Of a stretch of 46,623 bases of DNA, positions 23,488-34,669 are shown one piece after another. Position 1 is the first letter of the stretch. Each line of letters begins with the position of its first letter. Position numbers and translations under genes: made by a program. Source of the DNA: a virus; the IMG/VR virus record IMGVR_UViG_3300020034_000028, positions 1 through 46,623 of that record. One strand, written 5' to 3'. The notes beneath the pieces were generated by a model. The model made no database searches. It was not told the origin of the DNA and was given only the letters and a program-made list of their open reading frames with translations.

Positions 23488-23852
23488 TCGAATTCGCGGA
23501 GCATGAATTCAACCTCGGGTTGCGCGAGGACAACGGCGCCACGGCCCGCGAAACACTGGAAGGCCTGGCCAGCCGCACGAAGGATCCGATCAAGCGCGCC
23601 GGCTACGAGGCGGAACTGGTTGGGCCTCCGCTTCCTCTGCCGCTCGCGTATCTTTGGCGGACCTTCCTTCGCATCCGCCGGCGCAAGGGGTCGAATGGCT
23701 TTTCCGCCAACCCGATCGAGTGGCCGGATATCGACGCGTTCGTGCGGAACTCGCGGCTCAACCTGGCGCCGTGGGAAATCGAGGTTGTTGAGGCGTTGGA
23801 CGATCTTTGGCTGACGGTGAATTCGGGGGCGGCGAAGAAGGCCGAGGACTAA
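23463..23852 (+). CDS. Tail assembly chaperone T domain, probably made by -1 frameshift
   Basis: In the -1 frame relative to the chaperone, reading YGALREALIEFAEHEFNLGLREDN and on for about 129 codons. There is no ATG or GTG start in a useful place; the first possible starts are CTG 23484 and TTG 23520. The zero-frame codons TCT TTT ATG at 23458-23466 allow tRNA-Phe on TTT to slip back one base onto an identical TTT, which would give a fusion of about 269 residues. It lacks a full XXXYYYZ heptamer, so the exact slip point is uncertain. The family context supports a GT protein strongly. Confidence 0.62.
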   Translation, partial: YGALREALIEFAEHEFNLGLREDNGATARETLEGLASRTKDPIKRAGYEAELVGPPLPLPLAYLWRTFLRIRRRKGSNGFSANPIEWPDIDAFVRNSRLNLAPWEIEVVEALDDLWLTVNSGAAKKAED

Positions 23853-24106
23853 CCCTTGTTCAGCGTACAGATCGTCGTCGACCCGGAGTGAATAACGGCC
23901 TTCCGCATATCGCAGGTGGCCGCGATCAACGCGGTGTAATCGGACGGCCAGATCACGGGCGATCCTGGCGCGCAGTCTTTTCGCACGGCGGCCAGGGCTT
24001 CCGCGTATTTGGCGCCGGTCGCGACCTTGAAAAACCCAACGTCGCATTGCGCCGCGCCTGCCTGGGTTGAGAGCAACAACGTCGCCAACACCGCCAACCG
24101 TTTCAT
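23849..24106 (-). CDS. Antisense small secreted protein
   Basis: Eighty-five residues on the opposite strand to the tail operon. The start MKRLAVLATLLLSTQAGAAQ is a clear Sec signal peptide with a cleavage site after AGA; the mature part of about 67 residues has four Cys and could hold two disulphides in the periplasm. GGAG precedes the ATG. Its stop overlaps the chaperone stop by four bases. A leftward gene inside a rightward late operon is typical of a moron expressed from the lysogen; function unknown. Confidence 0.6.
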   Translation of the reverse strand: MKRLAVLATLLLSTQAGAAQCDVGFFKVATGAKYAEALAAVRKDCAPGSPVIWPSDYTALIAATCDMRKAVIHSGSTTICTLNKG

Positions 24107-24185: not shown

Positions 24186-24230
24186 ATGATTGACGTTGGG
24201 CTGATCTGGACTGGCGGCCCGGGTGGCTGA
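24186..24230 (+). CDS. 14-residue leader peptide coupled to the tape measure
   Basis: AGGAGG at 24171-24176 is well spaced for the ATG at 24186, which opens a frame of only 14 codons (MIDVGLIWTGGPGG). Its stop at 24228-24230 lies just inside the tape measure gene, whose GTG at 24223 has no ribosome site of its own. Ribosomes finishing the peptide would restart on the GTG, giving translational coupling. Confidence 0.5.
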   Translation: MIDVGLIWTGGPGG

Positions 24231-27200
24231 CGAGCGAATTGTTACAGAACTGATCATTGACGGTCGGCAGGCTGAACAGGGCGTTGCTCAGTTCACGGCG
24301 GCGATGGGGCGGGCCGGTGCGGCGACGGATCAGGTTGTCTCCGGGCAGGTCCGGCTTGAGGAATCAACCGGCCGGGCAGCGCGCGCCTACAACAACGTCC
24401 TGAGCCAGCTCGATCCGGTGTTCTTTGCCACGCAGCGGTTGGGTAAAGAAACCGGCACTGTAGAACTCGCGATGCGCGGCCTTGAGCGCCAGATGATGGC
24501 GGGCGGCGTGTCGGTGGAGCAATTCACGGCGCGATCGGCATTACTCCAGGGTCGCCTTGGGGAAATCAAGGCGGCGACGGCGGGGCTCGCTTCCGGCGCG
24601 ATCTCAGTATCCGACGCGATGAGCGTCATGAGCACGCAGGCGGAACGCACCGCCGCCATGAACGCCACCCTGAGTCGGAGCATGCAGGAGATCACCATCC
24701 GCGCGGCCGCGGCGGCGGACTCCTATCGTGCCATGGCGACCGCCCAAACCGCCTTCAACGCCCGCTCCGGCGCACTGTCCAGCAATCTCCTGTACGGCGA
24801 CGAGTACGCAAAACGCGCCGCCGACATCCAGGCGTACGGCAACGAACTCGACCGTTTGCGCGCGAAATATAACCCGCTGTTCGCTGTGTCAAAGCAGTAC
24901 GAAACAGCCCTTCAGGAAATCGCCGCCGCCGAAAAAGTGGGTGCCATCTCCGCGATCGAGGCGGCTGCCGCACAGGATCGCTTGACCAGGGCGTTCGCGG
25001 ATCAGGCGGGGACGGCGAAGGCGCTGGCCGCCGCGAATGAGCAGCTTGCCGCCACGAAGCTGGCCGACGCTCTTCAGAACATTGAATTCCGTGCGATCGA
25101 TGCGACGAAAGCCATGCGGGACATGGCCACCGCACAGTCCGCGTTCAACGCGGGGAGTGGTGTCGGGAGTAATCCACTTTACGGAGATGACTACGCGAAA
25201 CGAGCGACGGACATTGAAGCTTATGGCAGCGAATTAGATCGCCTCAGGGCAAAATACAACCCGCTGTTCGCCGTTTCGAAGCAATACGAAACCGAACTGA
25301 ACGACATCGCCACCGCGCAAAAACTCGGGGCGATCAATGCGACTGAGGCGGCGGCGGCACAAGCGAGAGTCACCGCGCAATTCGCCGCGGCTAATACACC
25401 CCTGAACGCCGTGGCCGGCTCTAGTAAAGCCGCCAGCTTCGCCCTCCGCGACCTTGGCGTCCAGTCCATCGACGTGTTCCAGGGCATGGCCACCGGCGCC
25501 CCGATCATGACGACCTTGATCCAACAGGGCTCCCAGGTCGGCCAGGTCATGGCGGTCAGCGGGGTGAGCGTCTCCCAGATGGGCGGCGCGATCCGCGGCG
25601 CCCTTGGCAGCGCCCTCGGGTTCATCATCTCCCCCATGGGCCTACTCATCACCGGCGCCGTCGCGGCAACAGCGGCTGTCGTGGCGCTCGGCGCGGTCGC
25701 GGAATCCAACAGCCGACAACTCCTCGCGATGCAGACTGCACTCCGCGGCACGCGAGACGATTTCGCGGCGATGGGCGCCGAAGCAATCGCCGCGGGGAAG
25801 GCCGTCGCGGCATCGTCCATTTTCGGGCGGTCGGATGCGACAACGGCCGCCGGATCGATCGCGTCCTCGGCCAACTTCGCGGGCACGACGGCGCAATTGA
25901 CGCAATTGGTGAAGATCGCGGGTGACGCCTCGGTTATTCTCGGCGTGACGTTGCCGGAATCAGCAAAGACGCTTGCTCAGGCGTTCGATGATCCAGCCAG
26001 GATCGTTCAAGACTTCGCCGACAAGCATCTCTTCGGTTTCAATCAGGCGTTGGCAACCTCGATCGAGCTACAGGCGCGTGCCGGCGATAAGGCGGGCGCG
26101 ACCGGGCGCATCATCGAACAACTCTCCGCTCAGACAAAAGGCGCGGCGAAGGACGGCCTAACGCCTCTTCAGAAGGCGTTGAGCGACCTAACGAACGCCT
26201 TCACCTCGTCCGGCGAGGGAGGAAAGTCACTCGCCGAAAAGCTCGGGGCGCCGATCGTCAATATGGCGGCTGGGTTCGTCACCGCGATCGGGACGATGGT
26301 CACGAAGATCGGCGAACTGGCGAACTCGATCCCGCCGTGGATGGTGACGCTTATCTCGCGCGGGAATTCGCTGGCGCTGGATTTGAACCCCGTGAGCGGA
26401 TCGTTGCGGGCGCTGTCTGGGACGAATGGGACGTTAGGCGGCGGTGGGATGTCGTTCCCTCAGGCCTCCGGTTATGTCGGCGGGCTGCCAGCCGATCTCG
26501 ATCCCCAGGCCGCCCGTGCCATCTACGGCGGCGCCGCATCGTTGGGTTTATCGGAGCAGATCGCTGACCTCGCCGCCAACATGGCGAAGTTGGTCGAAAG
26601 CAACGGCCGGCAATTCGACTCCAGCGGTAACACGTTGCTTGGTCCGCAGACCAAGTATGGCCGTGCGATGGGCCTAATGCAGGTTATGCCGGACAGCCCG
26701 GACTCAACGTTTGCGACTGTCGGCGGTAAGCGGTACGATCTGAACGACCTGAGCCAAAACGCATTGGCGGGCGTCGCGCGGCTGGCGGAATACGTCAAGC
26801 AATTCGGGTCTCTTGAGGGCGGCGCGTGGGCATACAGCGCCGGTCCGCTGAATGTGCAGAAGGGCATCTTTCCAGACGAGACGGCGCGGAACTTCGCGAA
26901 GCTCGGGTTAACGTCCCCGAGTGGTGCGGGGTCGTCCGTCACGGTTGGGATGCCGGTCATTCAGGCGGACGGTGGGATATACGGACCCACGCTGGCGGGC
27001 GGTAATTATGGAGCAGCGAACGACCCCAACAGGCAAATTGACGACGCGCTAAAAAAGTCCGGCGGCCCGGTGTTCGACCGCGCCAACGCGAAGGCGGACA
27101 TCGATCAATACGCGTCCGCGCTGAAGAACCTCGCGGACCAGGGCGTGACGACCGGGGATAAAGTCAATCAGCTTCGGGACGCGCTAAATCTGGCGAACAA

Positions 27201-29760
27201 GGCGTACACCGAGGCTGTCGCGCCGATACAAGGCATTCTCAACGCGCTGAACATTCAAATCGACGCTGAAAATCGTGTGGCGACAGCTTGGAAAAGCGGC
27301 GCTGGCGCGGCGGCGGAGATGACCGCCAGAGTTCATGCCGAAGCGGAGGCTCGAAAGATCGGCGGCGAGGCGTTGGCCCAGAACGTCGCGGCAGTGCAGG
27401 CGCTCACTGACAAATACCGAGACAACGCGGCGGCCGTGGAGCGCGGCAGACTTGCCCAGGCCGGTTCCGTTACGAGCGACGAAACCAAAATCATTCGCAC
27501 GCAAATCGACACAATCGGAATGGAGTCGATCGCGCGTCAGGCTCTGATCCAGCATATGAAGAACGAACAGGATGTTGCCCGGCAATATCCGAACGTTTCC
27601 GAGGCTGAGCGTGCCGCCCGCGTCAATCAGCTTGATACCGTCAACCAAATGTCTCAGGCGCTTCAACGGCAACAGGCGGCGGTTGACGAACTTGGGAATG
27701 CGTTCTCTCAGGGCTTCGATACGATCGGCAATTCTATCACTCAGTCTTTGGTTTCAGGTCAGGGCGCTGCCGTAAATTGGGCGAACGTAATGACCAGCGC
27801 GGCGCAGCAGGTCTTGCAGGCGTTTTTGAAATTGGCGGTGATCAACCCGTTGCTGAATTCTTTGTTGTCCAGCACGACGCATCGGTCGACACTTGAAGAT
27901 CTTCTCGGCGGCGTGTCGGGCGGCGGGTCCGGTGGCGCGACCCTCACCGACGCGTCGGGCAACGTCATCGGAACGCTCAGCAGCGGTTCCAGTGCCGTCT
28001 CCAGCACATCCAGTCTGCTGGAAGCGTTTGGCTACAAAGGGTTGGGCGAGCAGTTCGGGTTGACCGGGCCCAACGGGATATTCAGCGGCGCCGGCAGTAG
28101 CATCGCCCAAACCCTCGCGACGCCAATTTATGGCAGTGCCGCGGCCTCCGCCGCAGCCGACACCGCCATTGCTGGCAGCACGGTCTACGGCCCAATCACA
28201 TCAGCCCAGTTCGCCGCGGCCGGCGGCGTCGCTCCCATCACCGCCGGCGCCGCACTCGGCGCCGCTGGTGGTGGGTTCGCCGTCGGCAGCCTGATCGGCA
28301 CGGGCGTTCAAAGCCTCGCCGGCAAGACTGGCCCAGGCCCCGAGATCGGCGCCGCGGTTGGCACAGGGGCCGGCATCGCGGCCTACGCGATCGGCACGGC
28401 GCTGGCACCAGAGACGTTCGGGCTGTCACTCCTTGCCGCGGCCCTGATCGGCGGCGCGATTGGCGGCGCCGGCGGCGGCCTGATCGGTCCGGGCCCGCAA
28501 AACAAATACTCCGGCACGGAAGTCGGACTGGACAGCGGGCGCCTGATCATCGGTCAGACCCGCGCGCAACTCGTCGATGGCAACGCCGAACGAGAAGCGA
28601 CCATCAATGACATCAATGCGATAAACTCATTCCTCGGCAACGCTGAGGTGAAGATCACATCGCTCGGCCAACTGGCTCAGGTCGGACAAAACACGCCGGG
28701 CGGTTACCAGGATCCGACCAAAGCCGCGAACCTGGCCACCGCTTTCCCGTCATTCCAGTTCGACCGGACCGACGATCCGGTGTTCACGAAATTCCTGGCC
28801 GGCAAATCCTTCCCCGACCTGACCACGCTCGCCACTCAGACCGCTGAATATTTGCAGCTGATCAAGAGCACGATCCCGGCGCTGACCGAGCAAGTCAAAA
28901 CGACCACCGAATATGCCAGGACGATGAGCGTCCTGAACAAGCAGTTCGACGACGCGATAGCGACGGCGCAAAAATACGGCGTCGCGACAGACGCGCTAAC
29001 CGCCGCACAGGCCGATGCGAACAAGAAGGCGCTCGAAGCCGTCAATAAACCCTTCAATGAGGCGTCCATCGGATTCGGCCTTCGCTTTGACCAGGCCGCC
29101 GCGCAGATCAATGGCGATCCGGCCCTGGCACTTTCGGTGCAGCTGCGCGCGTTCGACATTCAGGCTCAACAGCAACGCGATGCGTTCAAGGATCAACTCA
29201 TCACCGCGTACGGCGAAGCGATCGAGGGAACGGCGGGCTACAACGCGCGGATGCTCGATCTGGAGCGCGCGCTCGGCGAGGAGCGACTGGTGATCCAGAA
29301 GCAATACAACGATCAGATCGCCTCGGCCGCGACGCAAACGGTTCAATCGCTCTCGGCCTACGCGCTGAAACTCCAGTTCGGCGCCGCGTCTCCACTTTCG
29401 CCCCAGGCGCAACTCTCGCTGGCGCAATCTCAGTTCAACGCGGTCTCGGGCGCGGCGGCGGCTGGCAACTTCAACAGCATCGGGCAACTCCCCGGCTACG
29501 CCGACTCCCTGCTGACCGCCAGCCGCACGGTGAACGGCTCGGGCGCGGCCTATGCGGCGACGTTCCAACAGGTGTTGGATGCCCTGACCCGTGCGTCGCA
29601 GGCCACGCCGGACACGCTCACGGCGTCGGTGCTACAGATCGAGACGCGGACACAGACGCAGCGTCTGGAAGCCTCTTTGGCGGAACTCAAAACCGAATTG
29701 CAGGGCATCAGGCAGCAGATGCAACAGAACGGCGCCGCGCCGCTGAGGAACGCGGCGTGA
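24223..29760 (+). CDS. Tape measure protein with lytic transglycosylase domain
   Basis: A long 1845-residue protein. By the usual rule of about 0.15 nm per residue it implies a tail near 275 nm. The N-terminal 400 residues are helical and include a duplicated block with a 130-residue period. Hydrophobic Gly/Ala segments near 470-495 and 1330-1420 may enter the membrane. An SLT-type domain lies at about 765-880: catalytic E792 in VESNGRQFD, GLMQVMP at 817-823, and AYSAGP at 870-875. Tape measures fix tail length and help DNA pass the cell wall; the SLT domain would cut peptidoglycan. Starts at GTG 24223, coupled to a leader peptide. Confidence 0.93.
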   Translation: MADERIVTELIIDGRQAEQGVAQFTAAMGRAGAATDQVVSGQVRLEESTGRAARAYNNVLSQLDPVFFATQRLGKETGTVELAMRGLERQMMAGGVSVEQFTARSALLQGRLGEIKAATAGLASGAISVSDAMSVMSTQAERTAAMNATLSRSMQEITIRAAAAADSYRAMATAQTAFNARSGALSSNLLYGDEYAKRAADIQAYGNELDRLRAKYNPLFAVSKQYETALQEIAAAEKVGAISAIEAAAAQDRLTRAFADQAGTAKALAAANEQLAATKLADALQNIEFRAIDATKAMRDMATAQSAFNAGSGVGSNPLYGDDYAKRATDIEAYGSELDRLRAKYNPLFAVSKQYETELNDIATAQKLGAINATEAAAAQARVTAQFAAANTPLNAVAGSSKAASFALRDLGVQSIDVFQGMATGAPIMTTLIQQGSQVGQVMAVSGVSVSQMGGAIRGALGSALGFIISPMGLLITGAVAATAAVVALGAVAESNSRQLLAMQTALRGTRDDFAAMGAEAIAAGKAVAASSIFGRSDATTAAGSIASSANFAGTTAQLTQLVKIAGDASVILGVTLPESAKTLAQAFDDPARIVQDFADKHLFGFNQALATSIELQARAGDKAGATGRIIEQLSAQTKGAAKDGLTPLQKALSDLTNAFTSSGEGGKSLAEKLGAPIVNMAAGFVTAIGTMVTKIGELANSIPPWMVTLISRGNSLALDLNPVSGSLRALSGTNGTLGGGGMSFPQASGYVGGLPADLDPQAARAIYGGAASLGLSEQIADLAANMAKLVESNGRQFDSSGNTLLGPQTKYGRAMGLMQVMPDSPDSTFATVGGKRYDLNDLSQNALAGVARLAEYVKQFGSLEGGAWAYSAGPLNVQKGIFPDETARNFAKLGLTSPSGAGSSVTVGMPVIQADGGIYGPTLAGGNYGAANDPNRQIDDALKKSGGPVFDRANAKADIDQYASALKNLADQGVTTGDKVNQLRDALNLANKAYTEAVAPIQGILNALNIQIDAENRVATAWKSGAGAAAEMTARVHAEAEARKIGGEALAQNVAAVQALTDKYRDNAAAVERGRLAQAGSVTSDETKIIRTQIDTIGMESIARQALIQHMKNEQDVARQYPNVSEAERAARVNQLDTVNQMSQALQRQQAAVDELGNAFSQGFDTIGNSITQSLVSGQGAAVNWANVMTSAAQQVLQAFLKLAVINPLLNSLLSSTTHRSTLEDLLGGVSGGGSGGATLTDASGNVIGTLSSGSSAVSSTSSLLEAFGYKGLGEQFGLTGPNGIFSGAGSSIAQTLATPIYGSAAASAAADTAIAGSTVYGPITSAQFAAAGGVAPITAGAALGAAGGGFAVGSLIGTGVQSLAGKTGPGPEIGAAVGTGAGIAAYAIGTALAPETFGLSLLAAALIGGAIGGAGGGLIGPGPQNKYSGTEVGLDSGRLIIGQTRAQLVDGNAEREATINDINAINSFLGNAEVKITSLGQLAQVGQNTPGGYQDPTKAANLATAFPSFQFDRTDDPVFTKFLAGKSFPDLTTLATQTAEYLQLIKSTIPALTEQVKTTTEYARTMSVLNKQFDDAIATAQKYGVATDALTAAQADANKKALEAVNKPFNEASIGFGLRFDQAAAQINGDPALALSVQLRAFDIQAQQQRDAFKDQLITAYGEAIEGTAGYNARMLDLERALGEERLVIQKQYNDQIASAATQTVQSLSAYALKLQFGAASPLSPQAQLSLAQSQFNAVSGAAAAGNFNSIGQLPGYADSLLTASRTVNGSGAAYAATFQQVLDALTRASQATPDTLTASVLQIETRTQTQRLEASLAELKTELQGIRQQMQQNGAAPLRNAA
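24730..25392 (+). repeat. Internal duplication in the tape measure gene
   Basis: Residues about 170-261 and 300-390 are two copies of one block. Shared features are MATAQxAFNA, LYGDxYAKRAxDIxAYG, ELDRLRAKYNPLFAVSKQYET and GAIxAxEAAAAQ. The offset is 390 bases with a one-codon indel. Conservation is much higher in the RAKYNPLFAVSKQYE stretch than outside it. In the known families this stretch is common in phage tape measures, so repeat number may set tail length. Confidence 0.8.
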
Positions 29761-29821
29761 TAAGCTTAATGCTATCGTCTCGGCGCGTTCGCAATCAGGC
29801 AGTCTCTCAAAAACCCGATCG

Positions 29822-29843
29822 CCGAGGTTGGTCGACGCCTCGG
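29822..29843. terminator. Possible bidirectional terminator between convergent genes
   Basis: CCGAGG and CCTCGG flank a 10-base loop in the gap between the rightward tape measure gene and the leftward lipoprotein gene. No clear T-run on either side, so termination ability is doubtful; the convergent setting is the main argument. Confidence 0.3.
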
Positions 29844-29848
29844 TGCGA

Positions 29849-30298
29849 CTACCGCCCCTCGCGACGCAGACGCCTTGCAGCAAGACAATCGTTCATGACG
29901 GATATCTTAAGTGCCAGACTACCAAAGGAAGCATTTCCACGCGAGCGACACTCAGCTATTTCGGATGGTCGATTAACTCTAAGTAGGCGGGCGGCCTCTT
30001 GCCGCTCGTATAAAGCCGCCGCGCGCATTACTTGTTGGTGCTCTTCTTCAACTCGCGCCGATTGTATTCGGGACTGTTCTCTCGCGAATTGACGCCCCTC
30101 AGGAGTTTCGTTTTCCCATCGGACCTGTGCGATCCCTCGGTTAATTTCGACTGTCTTGGCGACGTATTCTGGTGGTGTGCGGTTACAACTCGCCAAGGTG
30201 ATGAGGATGATTATTATATGGGCGGAAGCCATTCCTATTGTCATGACACGCTTCGTCCCTTTTGCGTTGGGGTTGTTCGAAATCTCTTCTTCAACCAT
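29849..30298 (-). CDS. Lipoprotein downstream of Mnt-like repressor
   Basis: A frame of 149 residues. KRVMTIGMASAHIIIILITLASC is a lipoprotein signal with the lipobox LASC at about 34-37; the mature protein is charged and helical (REQSRIQSARVEEEHQQVMRAA). Translation may start at ATG 30298, overlapping the repressor stop, or at ATG 30244; the longer form supplies the positive charges before the membrane segment. Lying downstream of an Mnt-like gene, it stands where P22 has sieA, so superinfection exclusion is an attractive but unproven role. An o-spanin is less likely given the position. Confidence 0.6.
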   Translation of the reverse strand: MVEEEISNNPNAKGTKRVMTIGMASAHIIIILITLASCNRTPPEYVAKTVEINRGIAQVRWENETPEGRQFAREQSRIQSARVEEEHQQVMRAAALYERQEAARLLRVNRPSEIAECRSRGNASFGSLALKISVMNDCLAARRLRREGR

Positions 30299-30542
30299 CT
30301 CCTATTAGTCGGCCTATTTCCTTTCGAACACGCGTCATCTCCGCTTCCATCTCCTTGATGCGCGTCTCAAGGCCCTCTGTGTCGGGTGACCCTTTGAATG
30401 ATCTCCGCAGGCGCATAAGGATCTCGGCATTCAATGATCGGCCGCTTTCCTTGGTCGCCTCTCGAAGCGCTTGCATCACGTCCAGGGGGAGGCGGACTCG
30501 CATCTGGTGGTCATCGTGATCCATGGCCCATCTATTGCTCAT
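30291..30542 (-). CDS. Mnt-like ribbon-helix-helix repressor
   Basis: The product, 83 residues, is almost the length of P22 Mnt. HQMRVRLPLDVMQALREATKESGRSLNAEILMRLRRSF fits the Arc/Mnt ribbon-helix-helix family: beta strand for base contacts (HQMRVRL), helix A, the G-R-S-x-N-x-E turn and helix B. The last 30 residues (EGLETRIKEMEAEMTRVRKEIG) form a coiled coil, as Mnt uses to make tetramers. It faces away from an Arc-like gene across a 66-base operator region. Expected to repress the antirepressor in the lysogen. Confidence 0.78.
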   Translation of the reverse strand: MSNRWAMDHDDHQMRVRLPLDVMQALREATKESGRSLNAEILMRLRRSFKGSPDTEGLETRIKEMEAEMTRVRKEIGRLIGDG

Positions 30543-30608
30543 TTTGGCCTTGCGTTAAACGGGCCAGCGTGGCCTAATGATGGGCCAACGCAGTCTAAGG
30601 AGGTCACA
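30543..30608. promoter_or_regulatory. Divergent operator region with four TGGCC half-sites
   Basis: Between two divergent ribbon-helix-helix genes. TGGCC occurs at 30545 (+), 30562-30566 (-), 30570 (+) and 30583-30587 (-). The central pair forms GGCCA-GCG-TGGCC (30562-30574), with the CCA-N3-TGG spacing of the P22 Mnt operator as I remember it. Clear -35 and -10 boxes are not obvious. AAGGAGGT at 30597-30604 is the ribosome site of the rightward gene. Confidence 0.6.
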
Positions 30609-30800
30609 ATGTCAGCCCGTGAAAACCCACACTTCAAGCTAAGGGTAACGCCTGAGCTGAAGGCGTGGATCGAGCGGCAGGCGAAAATGAATCATCGCTC
30701 CCTCACGGGAGAGATAGCCTATCACCTTGAGATGGTTCGCAAAAACGCCGAAGGGGAAGTCCGTCCCCAGGACGGCACGCCGGCGGCGGGACAGGTTTAG
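30609..30800 (+). CDS. Arc-like ribbon-helix-helix repressor
   Basis: Sixty-three residues starting MSARENPHFKLRVTPELKAWIERQAKMNHRSLTGEIAYHLEMV. The strand PHFKLRV, helix A and N-H-R-S-L-T-G-E-I turn match the Arc family; Arc itself is 53 residues. Excellent ribosome site AAGGAGGT. In P22, Arc limits the ant operon after infection; the same arrangement is seen here with an AntA-type gene downstream. Upstream in-frame extension was rejected because it would cover the operator and the divergent gene. Confidence 0.75.
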   Translation: MSARENPHFKLRVTPELKAWIERQAKMNHRSLTGEIAYHLEMVRKNAEGEVRPQDGTPAAGQV

Positions 30801-30827
30801 AAGCCTTACCGCCACCGGCTATCCGAA

Positions 30828-30847
30828 CCTCGCGCGGGAACGCGGGG
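30828..30847 (+). promoter_or_regulatory. Hairpin between Arc-like and Tat-protein genes
   Basis: CCTCGCG and CGCGGGG pair across a six-base loop (one G-U pair). No T-run. It belongs to the family of GC-rich intergenic hairpins with a CCCGCG/CGCGGG theme in this late region. Confidence 0.4.
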
Positions 30848-30874
30848 ATCACACCAATCTGTAGGAGCAGATCG

Positions 30875-31336
30875 ATGCAGCAGCATATAGGTCAAAGCGA
30901 CGCGCGCGCCAAGCGTAACCCGTCCCGGAGAACTCTGTTCGGCCTTCCTTTGGCGCTCGCCGGCCTTTCCGCGGCGCCACCGGCGGCGCTCGCCGCCCAT
31001 CCCGACGCGGAACTGATCGCAACGCTCCTCACTTTCGACGCGATGGAGCGACGCGTCCTCGCCACCTACGATGGGCCAGACGCCATTGAGGACGAAGACG
31101 AGCGCCAGGCTTTCGTCAGACCGATCGTCGCGGCGCAGAAGCTGCTGATGGACAAAATTTGCGCTCTACGGGCCACGACGATGGAAGGCCTCCTGACGCG
31201 GGTTCGCACCGTATTGTTCGAGGACCAGGACATCATGCCCGATTCAATCGCTTCCACGTACGTGAACGAACGGCTTCTGGGGTCGCTGCTCAGAGACTTG
31301 TCGGTGTTGGCCGGCGTCGCCGTTTCATCAACCTGA
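30875..31336 (+). CDS. Tat-exported protein of unknown function
   Basis: A 153-residue protein. The N-terminus NPSRRTLFGLPLALAGLSAAPPAALA is a twin-arginine signal, with SRRTLFG matching the S-R-R-x-F-like consensus and an ALA cleavage site near residue 40. The mature part is helical and acidic (LLTFDAMERRVLATYDGPDAIEDEDER). TAGGAG precedes ATG 30875. It lies between the Arc-like gene and the antirepressor and would be repressed with them. I recognise no function; a secreted folded protein in an immunity operon is unusual. Confidence 0.62.
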   Translation: MQQHIGQSDARAKRNPSRRTLFGLPLALAGLSAAPPAALAAHPDAELIATLLTFDAMERRVLATYDGPDAIEDEDERQAFVRPIVAAQKLLMDKICALRATTMEGLLTRVRTVLFEDQDIMPDSIASTYVNERLLGSLLRDLSVLAGVAVSST

Positions 31337-31413
31337 TACCGGCCGCTTCGGCGGTCTGTGTGCCGAGCGGCGGGGGGATTGCTTGCAGGCGTTGCCCCGC
31401 CGCCCGGAGTTTC

Positions 31414-31437
31414 GGTCCCGCGTTCGAGCGCGGGACC
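31414..31437 (+). promoter_or_regulatory. 9-bp perfect hairpin before the antirepressor gene
   Basis: GGTCCCGCG and CGCGGGACC flank the loop TTCGAG. The 131-base gap 31337-31467 is otherwise GC-rich and featureless, followed by the ribosome site AAGGAG. The stem is nearly the same as that at 22991-23017. No T-run; an attenuator or RNA stability element is more likely than a terminator. Confidence 0.6.
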
Positions 31438-31467
31438 TCGTCTCAACCCACAAGGAGTCTGTGAGTC

Positions 31468-32121
31468 ATGACTGAAGCCGAACATAAGCCGCTGATCCCG
31501 GTTTCTCAAATCCCGATCGGCGGCACGCCTGTTCAGGCGGTGGACGCCAGGGAACTGCACGGATTTCTTGGAGTGAAGAAGGACTTCACAAGCTGGATCA
31601 AGGCGCAAATCACCCGGGCAAGGCTGGTTGCTGACCGAGACTTTCTTGCGTTGCAACGCGAGGGACTTTTCACCCTAAAAGGTGAAAAGTCGACAATGGG
31701 GCGGCCGGTGACGGAATACTGGCTGACCCTTGATGCAGCCAAGCATACCTCGATGATGACGGGCACCGAGAAGGGCTTCGCGGTCCGCGAATACTTCATT
31801 GAATGCGAGCGTCGCGCCAACGGACGAACCTTACCGCCCAGCCCAGAGACCGAGATCCCGTGGAACGAACGCCCGATCGAGGATCGCCGCATCGAACTGG
31901 CGACGATCGCGATGTACCTTCGGACCGCCAATCCCGCCTCGGCCTGGTGGTACGCCAGGAATTACGCGCGGGTGCCGATCCCCCCGCGTCGGTTGCAACC
32001 GGCATGGTGGCAGTTGGACGCGGACCTGGGTGAACCCAAAGAAAACCCAGCGGTCGATATCAACGTGAACCTCAGTGGGTTCGCGAACGGACACGCCGTT
32101 GGCAACGGAAGCGCTCACTAA
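31468..32121 (+). CDS. AntA/AntB-type phage antirepressor
   Basis: In this 217-residue protein, residues 20-75 (TPVQAVDARELHGFLGVKKDFTSWIKAQI...RDFLAL) and 90-120 (VTEYWLTLDAAKHTSMMTGTEKGFAVREYFIECERR) make the AntA/AntB antirepressor domain. The C-terminal 90 residues are specific to this protein. Antirepressors bind and disable phage repressors, leading to induction. It is the last gene of the Arc-like operon and is followed by a strong terminator, so the module is transcriptionally separate from the tail fibre genes. Confidence 0.8.
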   Translation: MTEAEHKPLIPVSQIPIGGTPVQAVDARELHGFLGVKKDFTSWIKAQITRARLVADRDFLALQREGLFTLKGEKSTMGRPVTEYWLTLDAAKHTSMMTGTEKGFAVREYFIECERRANGRTLPPSPETEIPWNERPIEDRRIELATIAMYLRTANPASAWWYARNYARVPIPPRRLQPAWWQLDADLGEPKENPAVDINVNLSGFANGHAVGNGSAH

Positions 32122-32160
32122 CGGTCTTGCCCGGCGCTTGGGCGCGGGATAAACGACAAG

Positions 32161-32177
32161 TGAAGTCATTGACTTCA
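32161..32177. promoter_or_regulatory. Inverted repeat downstream of the antirepressor
   Basis: TGAAGTC-ATT-GACTTCA is a perfect 7-bp dyad in the 253-base gap 32122-32374. It includes TTGACT, but no -10 box sits at the right distance. It could be a repressor site for a tail-fibre promoter. The same gap holds the hairpin CCC(G)GCGC-TTGG-GCGCGGG at 32130-32148. Confidence 0.4.
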
Positions 32178-32293
32178 GACTAAGGCATGGCACGGCTGGG
32201 TTGATCTTGGCCGGGGTGGCGTCGATGGCGGGGTGGGGCTGCAAGCCCACGATTACCAATCGCAACCAGCACTCGATATCAGCACAGACGACG

Positions 32294-32324
32294 ACGGGCA
32301 CCTTCGGGTGCCCGTTTCGTTTCT
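32294..32324 (+). terminator. Rho-independent terminator after the antirepressor operon
   Basis: ACGGGCACC and GGTGCCCGT form a perfect 9-bp stem closed by a TTCG tetraloop, followed by a T-rich stretch (TTCGTTTCT). It is the best-formed terminator within the late region, placed 170 bases after the antirepressor stop and 50 bases before the tail fibre start. It would stop the module transcript; late transcription into the fibres presumably needs antitermination or a promoter nearby. Confidence 0.75.
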
Positions 32325-32374
32325 ACCCAATTTCAAATTTCAGCGACCAAATTTCGCCACTAAGCGAGGAACGC

Positions 32375-34669
32375 ATGACCACGATTGGCGGAAAGAAAAT
32401 CTCGGAACTGGCCTACCTTGGCGCCGGCTATTCCCCTGACGCCGACATGCTGGCCGTTGTGCACGCCGGCGACACATACAAACTGACATCGCACGACCTC
32501 GTTACATCTGTCCTCGGAACCGTCGTCACTGGTTACTCTCCGTCCGGAACGTTCAACGGCACATCCGGCGTCGCAACGAAAAACGACACGACCACATTCA
32601 CCCCAACCACGGGCGGCGTGGGCGGCACGGCGGGCCAATCCTACTACGTCACGACGGCCGGTTCGTTTTCTCTCGACGGCACGACGTCCTGGGCCATTGG
32701 CGATCTGCTGCTGAACGCGGGGAGCGCCTGGGTTCGGGTGCGGTTGTCCCTCTCGCTCGGCACGATGTCGGCGCAAAACTCGGTCAGTGTCTCGATCACG
32801 GGCGGTTCGATCGACAGCCTGACCACGATCGGATTGTCGGACGGATACACGCTGGCGCCGTACGACGCGGTCACGTTGGGTTACGTCCATGTCACGACGG
32901 ATGAGGATGGCAGCATATCGGCCGGCATCACGGATGACGGCACGCACGTTTTCGGCAAGGTCGATGTCCGGTCCGGGTCAGGCGCTTTTGACACCGTCGC
33001 CATCGCGGGTGGCACGGCGGTCCTTTCATCCATCACGGACGGCGGCGGGAACGTAACGACCGCTCAGGACCCTCGCGCCTCGTATCAGTATCTTCACTCC
33101 TGGGACGACGGCGCGGGCTACATCACCGCCGGCATTCTTGTCGATGGGACCTTTCATTTTTCTCGCGCGCGGATCGACAATATTGAAATCGACACCTTGG
33201 CGCTCACCAGTGTAACGGCCGACCTGGCGACGGTAACGACGGGAACATTCGGCGGAGCGACGTTCGAGCCTCTCGACACCCGCGTTCCAGACACGGCGTG
33301 GGCGGTAACCGATCCCGATGGAAATATCGCGCTTAGTATTAGCCTGTCGGGAATTCTGCGTGCCGCGCCATCAGCAAAAACGTTGGGCGCGTCTACGCTG
33401 CAACAGAACTTCGTTCGTCTGGGTCATATCCAGACCCGGCGGTTCAGCAACAATTACAATCTCGGTTCGACAAGCGGGCAGACGTGGGCCTCGGTTTGGG
33501 GGTTGGCGGCACCATTCGACGCGGTGCGCCTGGTCTATGCGACGAATGGAACCGGCGCATGCACCGTTAAAGGCAGCGTCGCAGCATCAGCTTCGCTCAA
33601 CAATGGCATAAATCCGCTGGATGAATCGGGCGGCGCGGTCACGGCGGTAGCGGTCACGTTCAACAACGGCGGGGTCGATCTTTCGCTCTGGGAACAATAC
33701 CACCGCATCCCGCAACCCGCCGCCGTTACCAGTCTCGCGCTCAATCCCGTTCCCGCCGGCGCCACGCTGTTCGCGACCATCAGCGACGGGCTCGGCTACG
33801 AGGAAGAAGTCAAAACTTATAGTGACTGGATTCCGCTCAGGTCCTTCACCCGCACCGATGGCGGCACGCTCCCGCTGCTGATGGTGCGCACCTACATGAC
33901 CGGCTCACCCCGGCCCGGCACCAGCGGCCCGAGCACCGGCTGGGAGACAGCCGCACGCGGGCGGATTCTGCGCTGCTTCGTCAACGCGGGTGACTGTGTC
34001 GCGACCCCGGCCAGCTTCACCAGCACAACGGTGCAGGGCGAATGCGTGCCGACCGAGGTGAGGTTCATGACCCGCGCGCGCGGCCTGACCATTGCCGTGG
34101 CGGGCGACAGTTGTTTGCAGGGTATAACGTCAAACGCGGGCGCCAATAACTTCGTGTTCCAGGCCGCGACCGCATTGTCCACCGCGACGCTGCCGATCGA
34201 GGTCCTGAACCTCGGGAAAACATCGATGTCATATCCGGGTTGGTTCTGGAACATCGAGGATTCCGTCACGGTCTCGAAACCGCAGATCGTCGTTATCCAG
34301 GGCGGCTCAAGAAATGGCGGGGGGTACGTGTCCGCCGCCGCGGCCGAGGCGGTATGGCAACACGTCATGGCTCTCATGGCGCGGGTGCGGGCCTACGGCG
34401 GCGTGCCGATCCTCATGACGCCATGGCCGGACAGCAGCGAGACCGCACCGACTGATCTCAATCGCCTCATTCTTGTTGCGAACTGTTTGCAGGCCGGACT
34501 CGGTGGAACGCCGGTCATAGACGCCAACGCGATGGTTGGTGTGGCCGGCACGCCGATGACGCTGAACGCGGCTTATTCCAGCGACGGCGTGCACCTGACC
34601 GATGCCGGCCACGCGTATCTCGCGACGGCGCTTACTCCGATCCTGCAACAAATCCTCGGCCTGATTTAG
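32375..34669 (+). CDS. Tail fibre with C-terminal SGNH/GDSL esterase domain
   Basis: This 764-residue fibre begins MTTIGGKKISELAYLGAGYSPDADMLAVVHAGDTYKLTSHDL, a common fibre or attachment motif. The middle is Thr, Gly and Ser-rich. The last 200 residues form an SGNH hydrolase: VAGDSCLQGI with S579 (block I), LNLGKTSM, GGSRNGGG in place of the usual GxND, and SDGVHLTDAGHAYLA with D737 and H740 (block V). Such domains remove acetyl groups from capsule, O-antigen or other glycans during adsorption. The start is set by AGCGAGGAA before ATG 32375. Confidence 0.82.
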   Translation: MTTIGGKKISELAYLGAGYSPDADMLAVVHAGDTYKLTSHDLVTSVLGTVVTGYSPSGTFNGTSGVATKNDTTTFTPTTGGVGGTAGQSYYVTTAGSFSLDGTTSWAIGDLLLNAGSAWVRVRLSLSLGTMSAQNSVSVSITGGSIDSLTTIGLSDGYTLAPYDAVTLGYVHVTTDEDGSISAGITDDGTHVFGKVDVRSGSGAFDTVAIAGGTAVLSSITDGGGNVTTAQDPRASYQYLHSWDDGAGYITAGILVDGTFHFSRARIDNIEIDTLALTSVTADLATVTTGTFGGATFEPLDTRVPDTAWAVTDPDGNIALSISLSGILRAAPSAKTLGASTLQQNFVRLGHIQTRRFSNNYNLGSTSGQTWASVWGLAAPFDAVRLVYATNGTGACTVKGSVAASASLNNGINPLDESGGAVTAVAVTFNNGGVDLSLWEQYHRIPQPAAVTSLALNPVPAGATLFATISDGLGYEEEVKTYSDWIPLRSFTRTDGGTLPLLMVRTYMTGSPRPGTSGPSTGWETAARGRILRCFVNAGDCVATPASFTSTTVQGECVPTEVRFMTRARGLTIAVAGDSCLQGITSNAGANNFVFQAATALSTATLPIEVLNLGKTSMSYPGWFWNIEDSVTVSKPQIVVIQGGSRNGGGYVSAAAAEAVWQHVMALMARVRAYGGVPILMTPWPDSSETAPTDLNRLILVANCLQAGLGGTPVIDANAMVGVAGTPMTLNAAYSSDGVHLTDAGHAYLATALTPILQQILGLI

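Follow-up and report, generated by a model that had tools for sequence, protein, structure and literature searches.

What is a compact set of regulatory genes doing in the middle of a phage tail operon? The question is posed by a 46.6 kb IMG/VR virus record (IMGVR_UViG_3300020034_000028; ‘the window’ hereafter refers to this whole stretch), which carries terminase, portal, capsid and tail genes plus a tyrosine integrase, and in which five genes at 29849–32324 sit with a tape measure gene on one side and a fibre gene on the other. Its closest terminases are found almost solely in Alphaproteobacteria, mainly Hyphomicrobiales (26/28 loci). An initial sequence-only reading likened the unit to the immI region (mnt–arc–ant) of phage P22; we too regard it, with good confidence, as an immI-like antirepressor cassette (an ‘ant moron’) that a temperate siphophage of Alphaproteobacteria harbours within its late operon and that would operate as the switch proposed below. 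Architecturally the comparison with P22 is sound, and as an account of the mechanism it is probable; it does not, however, extend to homology between the antirepressor and P22 Ant.

In the late direction, the module and its two neighbours are arranged as follows:

24223–29760, plus strand: tape measure protein, 1845 amino acids; immediately upstream of the module
29849–30298, minus strand: putative lipoprotein, 149 amino acids, lipobox-like motif LASC; gene convergent with that of the tape measure, no Pfam match
30291–30542, minus strand: ‘mnt-side’ ribbon-helix-helix repressor, 83 amino acids; PF03869, 35.1 bits
30543–30608, no strand: candidate operator/promoter region, the 66 bp between the repressor genes, with CCAGCGTGG and a tandem repeat
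30561–30580 and 30582–30601: copies of the tandem repeat
30564–30572: CCAGCGTGG site, CCA-N3-TGG, resembling the Mnt operator
30609–30800, plus strand: ‘arc-side’ ribbon-helix-helix repressor, 63 amino acids; PF03869, 25.1 bits
30875–31336, plus strand: twin-arginine (Tat)-signal protein, 153 amino acids, between the arc-side gene and ant
31337–31467, plus strand: structured ant leader with three strong hairpins (31337–31480 folds at z −3.5)
31468–32121, plus strand: AntA-family antirepressor, 217 amino acids; PF08346, 71.5 bits; phrog_5817 (anti-repressor), 104 bits
32293–32316, plus strand: closing intrinsic terminator, 10-bp stem, TTCG loop
32375–34669, plus strand: tail fibre-like gene with a C-terminal GDSL-like domain, following the module

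Looking at the repressors, the two small divergent proteins are present with the lengths originally described, and profile searches place both inside the Arc/Mnt family, each scoring above the Pfam Arc cut-off (PF03869; 20.4 bits). The best natural solved relative of the leftward protein is P22 Arc (E = 1e-4), that of the rightward protein P22 Mnt (E = 0.07). The leftward repressor is mnt-like in length and position, and its C-terminus is coiled-coil-like; it fails as Mnt sensu stricto, having no match to the Mnt C-terminal domain (PF11423, Repressor_Mnt), for which P22 Mnt scores 72.9 bits. Naming the genes mnt and arc by size, as was done at the outset, is contradicted by their DNA-reading ‘heads’: the leftward HQMRVR aligns with PQFNLR of Arc and is Arc-like, whereas the rightward ARENPHFKLR (core PHFKLR) aligns with ARDDPHFNFR of Mnt and is Mnt-like. 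Aligned with one another (A1), the arc-side repressors have a C-terminal tail in common, G..L.A..PAA..N.TAL.G, which P22 Arc lacks; the window’s arc-side protein resembles them in this tail, of which it keeps TPAAG.

The rightward antirepressor is indeed of the AntA type, clearing the PF08346 cut-off (27 bits) and thereby belonging with the AntA/AntB antirepressors, and its coding score is good (24.6). It does lie downstream of the second repressor gene, though not directly next to it; the Tat-signal gene intervenes. AntA is rare in the class (3/385 over the cut-off), has no match in the 26 terminase-related genomes and is absent from the P22 record, whilst among viral contigs there are almost no close relatives of the window’s antirepressor, leftward repressor, Tat-signal protein or tail protein. 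Rfam recognises no C4-like or other known RNA in the leader in front of ant, giving no match across 28000–34000; judged by its predicted folding, the leader could stand in for the sar control of P22. The closing terminator and the placement of the unit between tape measure and tail fibre genes are both as originally reported.

The element predicted between the two repressor genes is also present, its operator role being putative. The tandem 20-mers, spaced at 21 bp, are identical at 15 of 20 positions, a value equalled by one in 1000 dinucleotide shuffles; the CCA-N3-TGG pattern appears in 37 of 1000 shuffles of the 66-bp gap, and the CCAGCGTGG nonamer is uninformative by itself because it is common elsewhere in the window. 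The core of the P22 Mnt operator is CCACGGTGG.

Does such a unit recur? Two profile scans of viral contigs yielded 160 Arc-like loci, with a divergent Arc pair in 110 and, in 58 of those 110, an antirepressor within 2.5 kb. The antirepressor is placed alike in all 58 modules, downstream of whichever protein is paired with the query-like one, an orientation measured relative to the queries because these were mostly mnt-side proteins. The protein on the side opposite the antirepressor has the longer C-terminus in every one of the 58, as Mnt does relative to Arc. At 60% identity the modules fall into 47 antirepressor clusters and 45 mnt-side clusters; in two pairs (L309/L318 and L283/L302) the mnt-side proteins are more than 60% identical and the antirepressor families differ. 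Where the mnt-side head resembles that of Mnt, a palindromic NCA-N3-TGN site, mostly CCAC[CG]GTGG or ACACCGTGT, occurs in 33 of 42 modules (4.6 expected), against 25 of 63 (8.3 expected) for other heads, these counts not being fully independent because some loci are related. The Mnt operator core CCAC[CG]GTGG thus recurs across modules.

A divergent pair accompanied by AntA is found in L168, L197, L292 and L300, the AntA modules being confirmed in the last three. L300 resembles the window in arrangement: immediately after a tape-measure-sized gene, and separated from it by a convergent gene, come AntA and a divergent Mnt-head pair; it differs in that AntA is fused to an ANT (KilAC) domain and no Tat gene is seen. 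As annotated by eye, the window’s order of tape measure, lipoprotein, Arc pair and antirepressor is repeated in L258, whilst in L283, L309 and L318 the unit stands among lambda-like tail-tip genes, flanked by NlpC/K-like and I/J-like genes; the antirepressors of these three are of the Bro-N, KilA-N, Rha or P22_AR_N families.

A search of Alphaproteobacteria for Arc, in which loci were read by hand and then Pfam-classified, likewise returned divergent pairs in many prophages. Those with an antirepressor, together with a Synechococcus phage, are:

G001 (Methylorubrum salsuginis prophage; G001:C33, L061): divergent Arc pair, ORF6N antirepressor
G484, G746 and G800: divergent Arc pair, pRha+ANT antirepressor
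G610: divergent Arc pair, pRha antirepressor
G870 and G803: divergent Arc pair, KilA-N antirepressor
G851: divergent Arc pair, AntA antirepressor
G873 and G943: divergent Arc pair, P22_AR_N antirepressor
Synechococcus phage MinM1 (ON981384), 1017–2458, in the structural cluster: divergent Arc pair, P22_AR_N antirepressor

For G746 and G943 the Arc family hits do not include the second partner, which was identified by eye; the G746 module contains three copies of ACCACGGTGGT. The divergent pair and the antirepressor stay linked in three prophages, Methylorubrum, G484 and G746, where they lie in tail operons, and in MinM1, where they lie in the structural cluster, in line with what the sequence-only reading would expect of related phages. 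Its further idea, that the unit holds a fixed position between ejection and adsorption genes, does not hold: in relatives it precedes the tape measure gene (between this and the tail chaperone region in G001, G484 and G746) or the major tail protein gene, or else has tail-tip genes on both sides, and the G851 module adjoins a tail fibre gene downstream of virion-type genes.

Taken together, the divergent Arc pair plus antirepressor spans Hyphomicrobiales prophages, Synechococcus phage MinM1, lambda-like siphophages and P22-like podophages, and at least six antirepressor domain families are interchangeable within it; the layout travels as a cassette, with phages exchanging its antirepressor portion, and the window module is one member of this widespread class of exchangeable antirepressor cassettes. 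Divergent pairs lacking an antirepressor also exist, mostly beside integrases (G606, G750, G774, G818). Arc-family genes in Hyphomicrobiales prophages (L110, L113–L116) often neighbour integrase and AlpA-like genes, which is a second, different use of Arc repressors. Within the G484 prophage, a pair that by eye looks like the HigB/HigA toxin–antitoxin lies between the Tat and tape measure genes (L101:12192–12862, minus strand).

Two genes of the module appear to be directed to the envelope. The leftward lipoprotein claimed initially is the weakest gene call of the five: the open reading frame (ORF) and its LASC motif are there, but a codon-usage caller does not call it and it fails the strict lipobox rule. 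On the mnt side, lipoprotein-like ORFs show no significant enrichment (2/56 versus 1/283, p = 0.07), leaving the lipoprotein unsupported as a fixed component. The Tat-signal gene has a good coding score (23.7), and its product, from its signal, would be exported and have a role at the envelope; the mature part is predicted with moderate confidence to be a helical bundle (mean predicted local distance difference test score, pLDDT, of 70), and the model finds no fold match with E below 0.001. Rather than the lone addition it was taken for, this protein is a recurrent passenger behind antirepressors, though in a minority of modules: 11 of 58 modules have a Tat-type ORF no more than 2.5 kb away on the antirepressor side, versus 3 of 187 control windows from the same contigs (Fisher p = 1.2e-5), under a relaxed definition admitting KRR starts that was picked after a stricter one, tried first, had been seen to miss those (5/58 versus 2/187, p = 0.009). 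A profile built from four other such proteins ranks the window’s Tat protein first among the window ORFs (E = 4e-8 with the signal; about 1e-3 for a profile of mature parts alone). Elsewhere, L181:1372–2227 encodes two tandem Tat-signal proteins, the first resembling that of the window. In the open-access literature we found nothing on a Tat partner of immI-like units.

How might the cassette work? In a P22 lysogen Mnt silences arc and ant, and upon infection Arc damps the operon (PMC11016777; PMC7549136); Ant inactivates the C2 repressor, and the frequency of lysogeny falls when immI is deleted (PMC11016777; PMC7549136). A similar scheme can be proposed from what is observed here: the layout, the families of the proteins, the repeats resembling operators, the terminator and the recurrence of the unit in other phages. 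In the lysogen, the leftward mnt-side repressor would be made, bind the shared operators, sustain its own gene and shut the rightward promoter, keeping the arc–tat–ant transcript silent. When the phage enters a new cell, the rightward promoter would fire, giving the arc-side repressor, the Tat-signal protein and AntA; the arc-side repressor would then damp both promoters, whilst AntA would bind and inactivate the main repressor of the phage, shifting the balance between lysis and lysogeny, and the terminator would insulate the module from the fibre gene.

Some observations weigh against this scheme. By size and position the reading heads of the two repressors are swapped with respect to P22; the operator palindrome is short, with 5-bp arms matched by 186 of 300 shuffles; a sar-like antisense RNA has not been demonstrated, the ant leader having no Rfam match. 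The contig is a linear virus record, so that lysogeny is deduced solely from the integrase, and Pfam and PHROGs recognise no CI-like repressor or CI/Cro region, the expected target of AntA, among the tested early genes of the window. The absence of a recognised CI target would suit an accessory moron in which the Arc-pair switch expresses lysogenic-conversion genes (the lipoprotein and the Tat protein) and the AntA protein is an ordinary DNA-binding regulator rather than a CI antirepressor. Envelope-directed genes do lie on both sides of the switch, Tat-signal ORFs are enriched behind modules, and AntA, KilA-N and Bro-N domains are generally held to bind DNA; but the sole constant across the 58 modules is an antirepressor-class protein on the arc side, with lipoprotein-like ORFs not significantly enriched and Tat ORFs present only in a minority, and we consider this explanation unlikely.

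Decay is a further consideration, since P22-like phages with degraded ant morons are known (PMC2629481): a remnant of immI without present function would accommodate the weak coding signal of the lipoprotein gene, the short operator palindrome and the lower G+C across 29900–30500. All five reading frames are nevertheless intact with plausible starts, and the coding scores of ant and tat are good, making a remnant quite improbable to our minds. Least credible of all, and very improbable, is the chance juxtaposition of unrelated Arc-type regulators, for example of toxin–antitoxin or excisionase type, with an antirepressor gene; Arc-like ribbon-helix-helix domains do resemble antitoxins, and Arc-family genes are also found alone beside integrase and AlpA-like genes, yet an ordered, polarised unit that recurs in dozens of diverged phages, conserves its operator cores and carries antirepressors of 47 clusters (which speaks against one recent transfer) already contradicts it.

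If an immI-like cassette is accepted, what follows? So far, descriptions of P22 immI have come mainly from P22-like podophages, and functional work on it from P22; the present survey extends its topology and operator core to Alphaproteobacteria siphophages, a cyanophage and lambda-like siphophages. We found no description in the open-access literature of exchangeable antirepressor cassettes outside P22-like phages, including siphophage immI regions with other antirepressors. With their naturally exchanged antirepressors, the modules form a series in which one can ask what portion of the antirepressor is responsible for recognising the repressor, and also why tail operons are where these units are found; they point, too, to a recurring component of which we found no description, the Tat-signal protein of the antirepressor gene cluster. 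More tentatively, and as a possibility on which we would not yet bet, immI may be a general mobile control cassette with a conserved Mnt/Arc switch and operator core, moving through siphophage and podophage late operons, acquiring the antirepressor family that suits the repressor already present, and often co-expressing a Tat-exported helical protein with the antirepressor, thereby coupling the lysis–lysogeny switch to an action at the envelope; were this so, that action could be, for example, exclusion of the next phage.

Beyond the module, an 85-amino-acid leftward gene with an apparent Sec signal (MKRLAVLATLLLSTQAGAAQC; 23849–24106, minus strand) is flanked by the tail chaperone region and the tape measure gene, the site of the immI-like unit in related prophages, and is a second moron. 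The tape measure protein (24223–29760) has an internal duplication (MATAQTAFNARSGALSSNLLYGDEYAKRAADIQAYG / MATAQSAFNAGSGVGSNPLYGDDYAKRATDIEAYG). The fibre ORF is listed with a TTG start at 32201, the ATG at 32375 being likelier. Beyond the integrase, at the contig edge, is a fragment of a radical-SAM phage protein (45908–46522, minus strand); MinM1 likewise has a Gp37/Gp68-family gene near its integrase.

Turning finally to known systems, secondary immunity of the P1/N15 kind, controlled by C4 RNA, is ruled out by the empty Rfam search of 28000–34000 and by the absence of AntA from the P1 and N15 records, which also rules out AntA as their antirepressor family; that of N15 is Bro-N. MinM1 shares with the window a divergent Arc pair and antirepressor in a structural cluster, and a tail protein 35% identical to the window’s, but has a P22_AR_N antirepressor, no visible Tat or lipoprotein gene and another place in the cluster. 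The Methylorubrum salsuginis prophage has a divergent Arc pair (arc-side proteins 38% identical), an antirepressor and a Tat-signal protein in a tail operon; there, however, the antirepressor is ORF6N, the Tat gene follows ant and the module precedes the tape measure gene.

As for P22 itself, immI lies in the late operon yet is largely not expressed from it (PMC8022706), and the region, termed the ‘ant moron’, is highly variable between phages (PMC2629481). Run through the same Pfam tool, P22 Mnt gives PF03869 and PF11423, Arc PF03869, and Ant PF10547 and PF10548 (P22_AR_N and P22_AR_C); the window’s repressors are therefore of the Arc/Mnt family and its antirepressor, with PF08346 only, of another, ruling it out as a P22 Ant homologue. 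Unlike P22, the window has a leftward repressor without PF11423, a Tat-signal gene where arc and ant adjoin in P22, a putative lipoprotein at the position of sieA, and a siphophage tail operon in which the module follows the tape measure gene; with these differences, an antirepressor of another family, and sieA and sar not shown in it, the module is not a P22 immI orthologue. The annotated order in P22 is mnt (83 amino acids) leftward, operators, arc rightward, ant rightward, terminator and tail gene. The window matches it in its divergent Arc/Mnt-family pair with an 83-residue mnt side, candidate operator sites where P22 has operators, an antirepressor to the arc side of the pair, another leftward gene past mnt and a terminator before a tail gene; what marks an ant moron, divergent Arc-family repressors with an antirepressor downstream of one of them, inserted into the late operon, is found here, between tape measure and fibre genes and closed by its own terminator.

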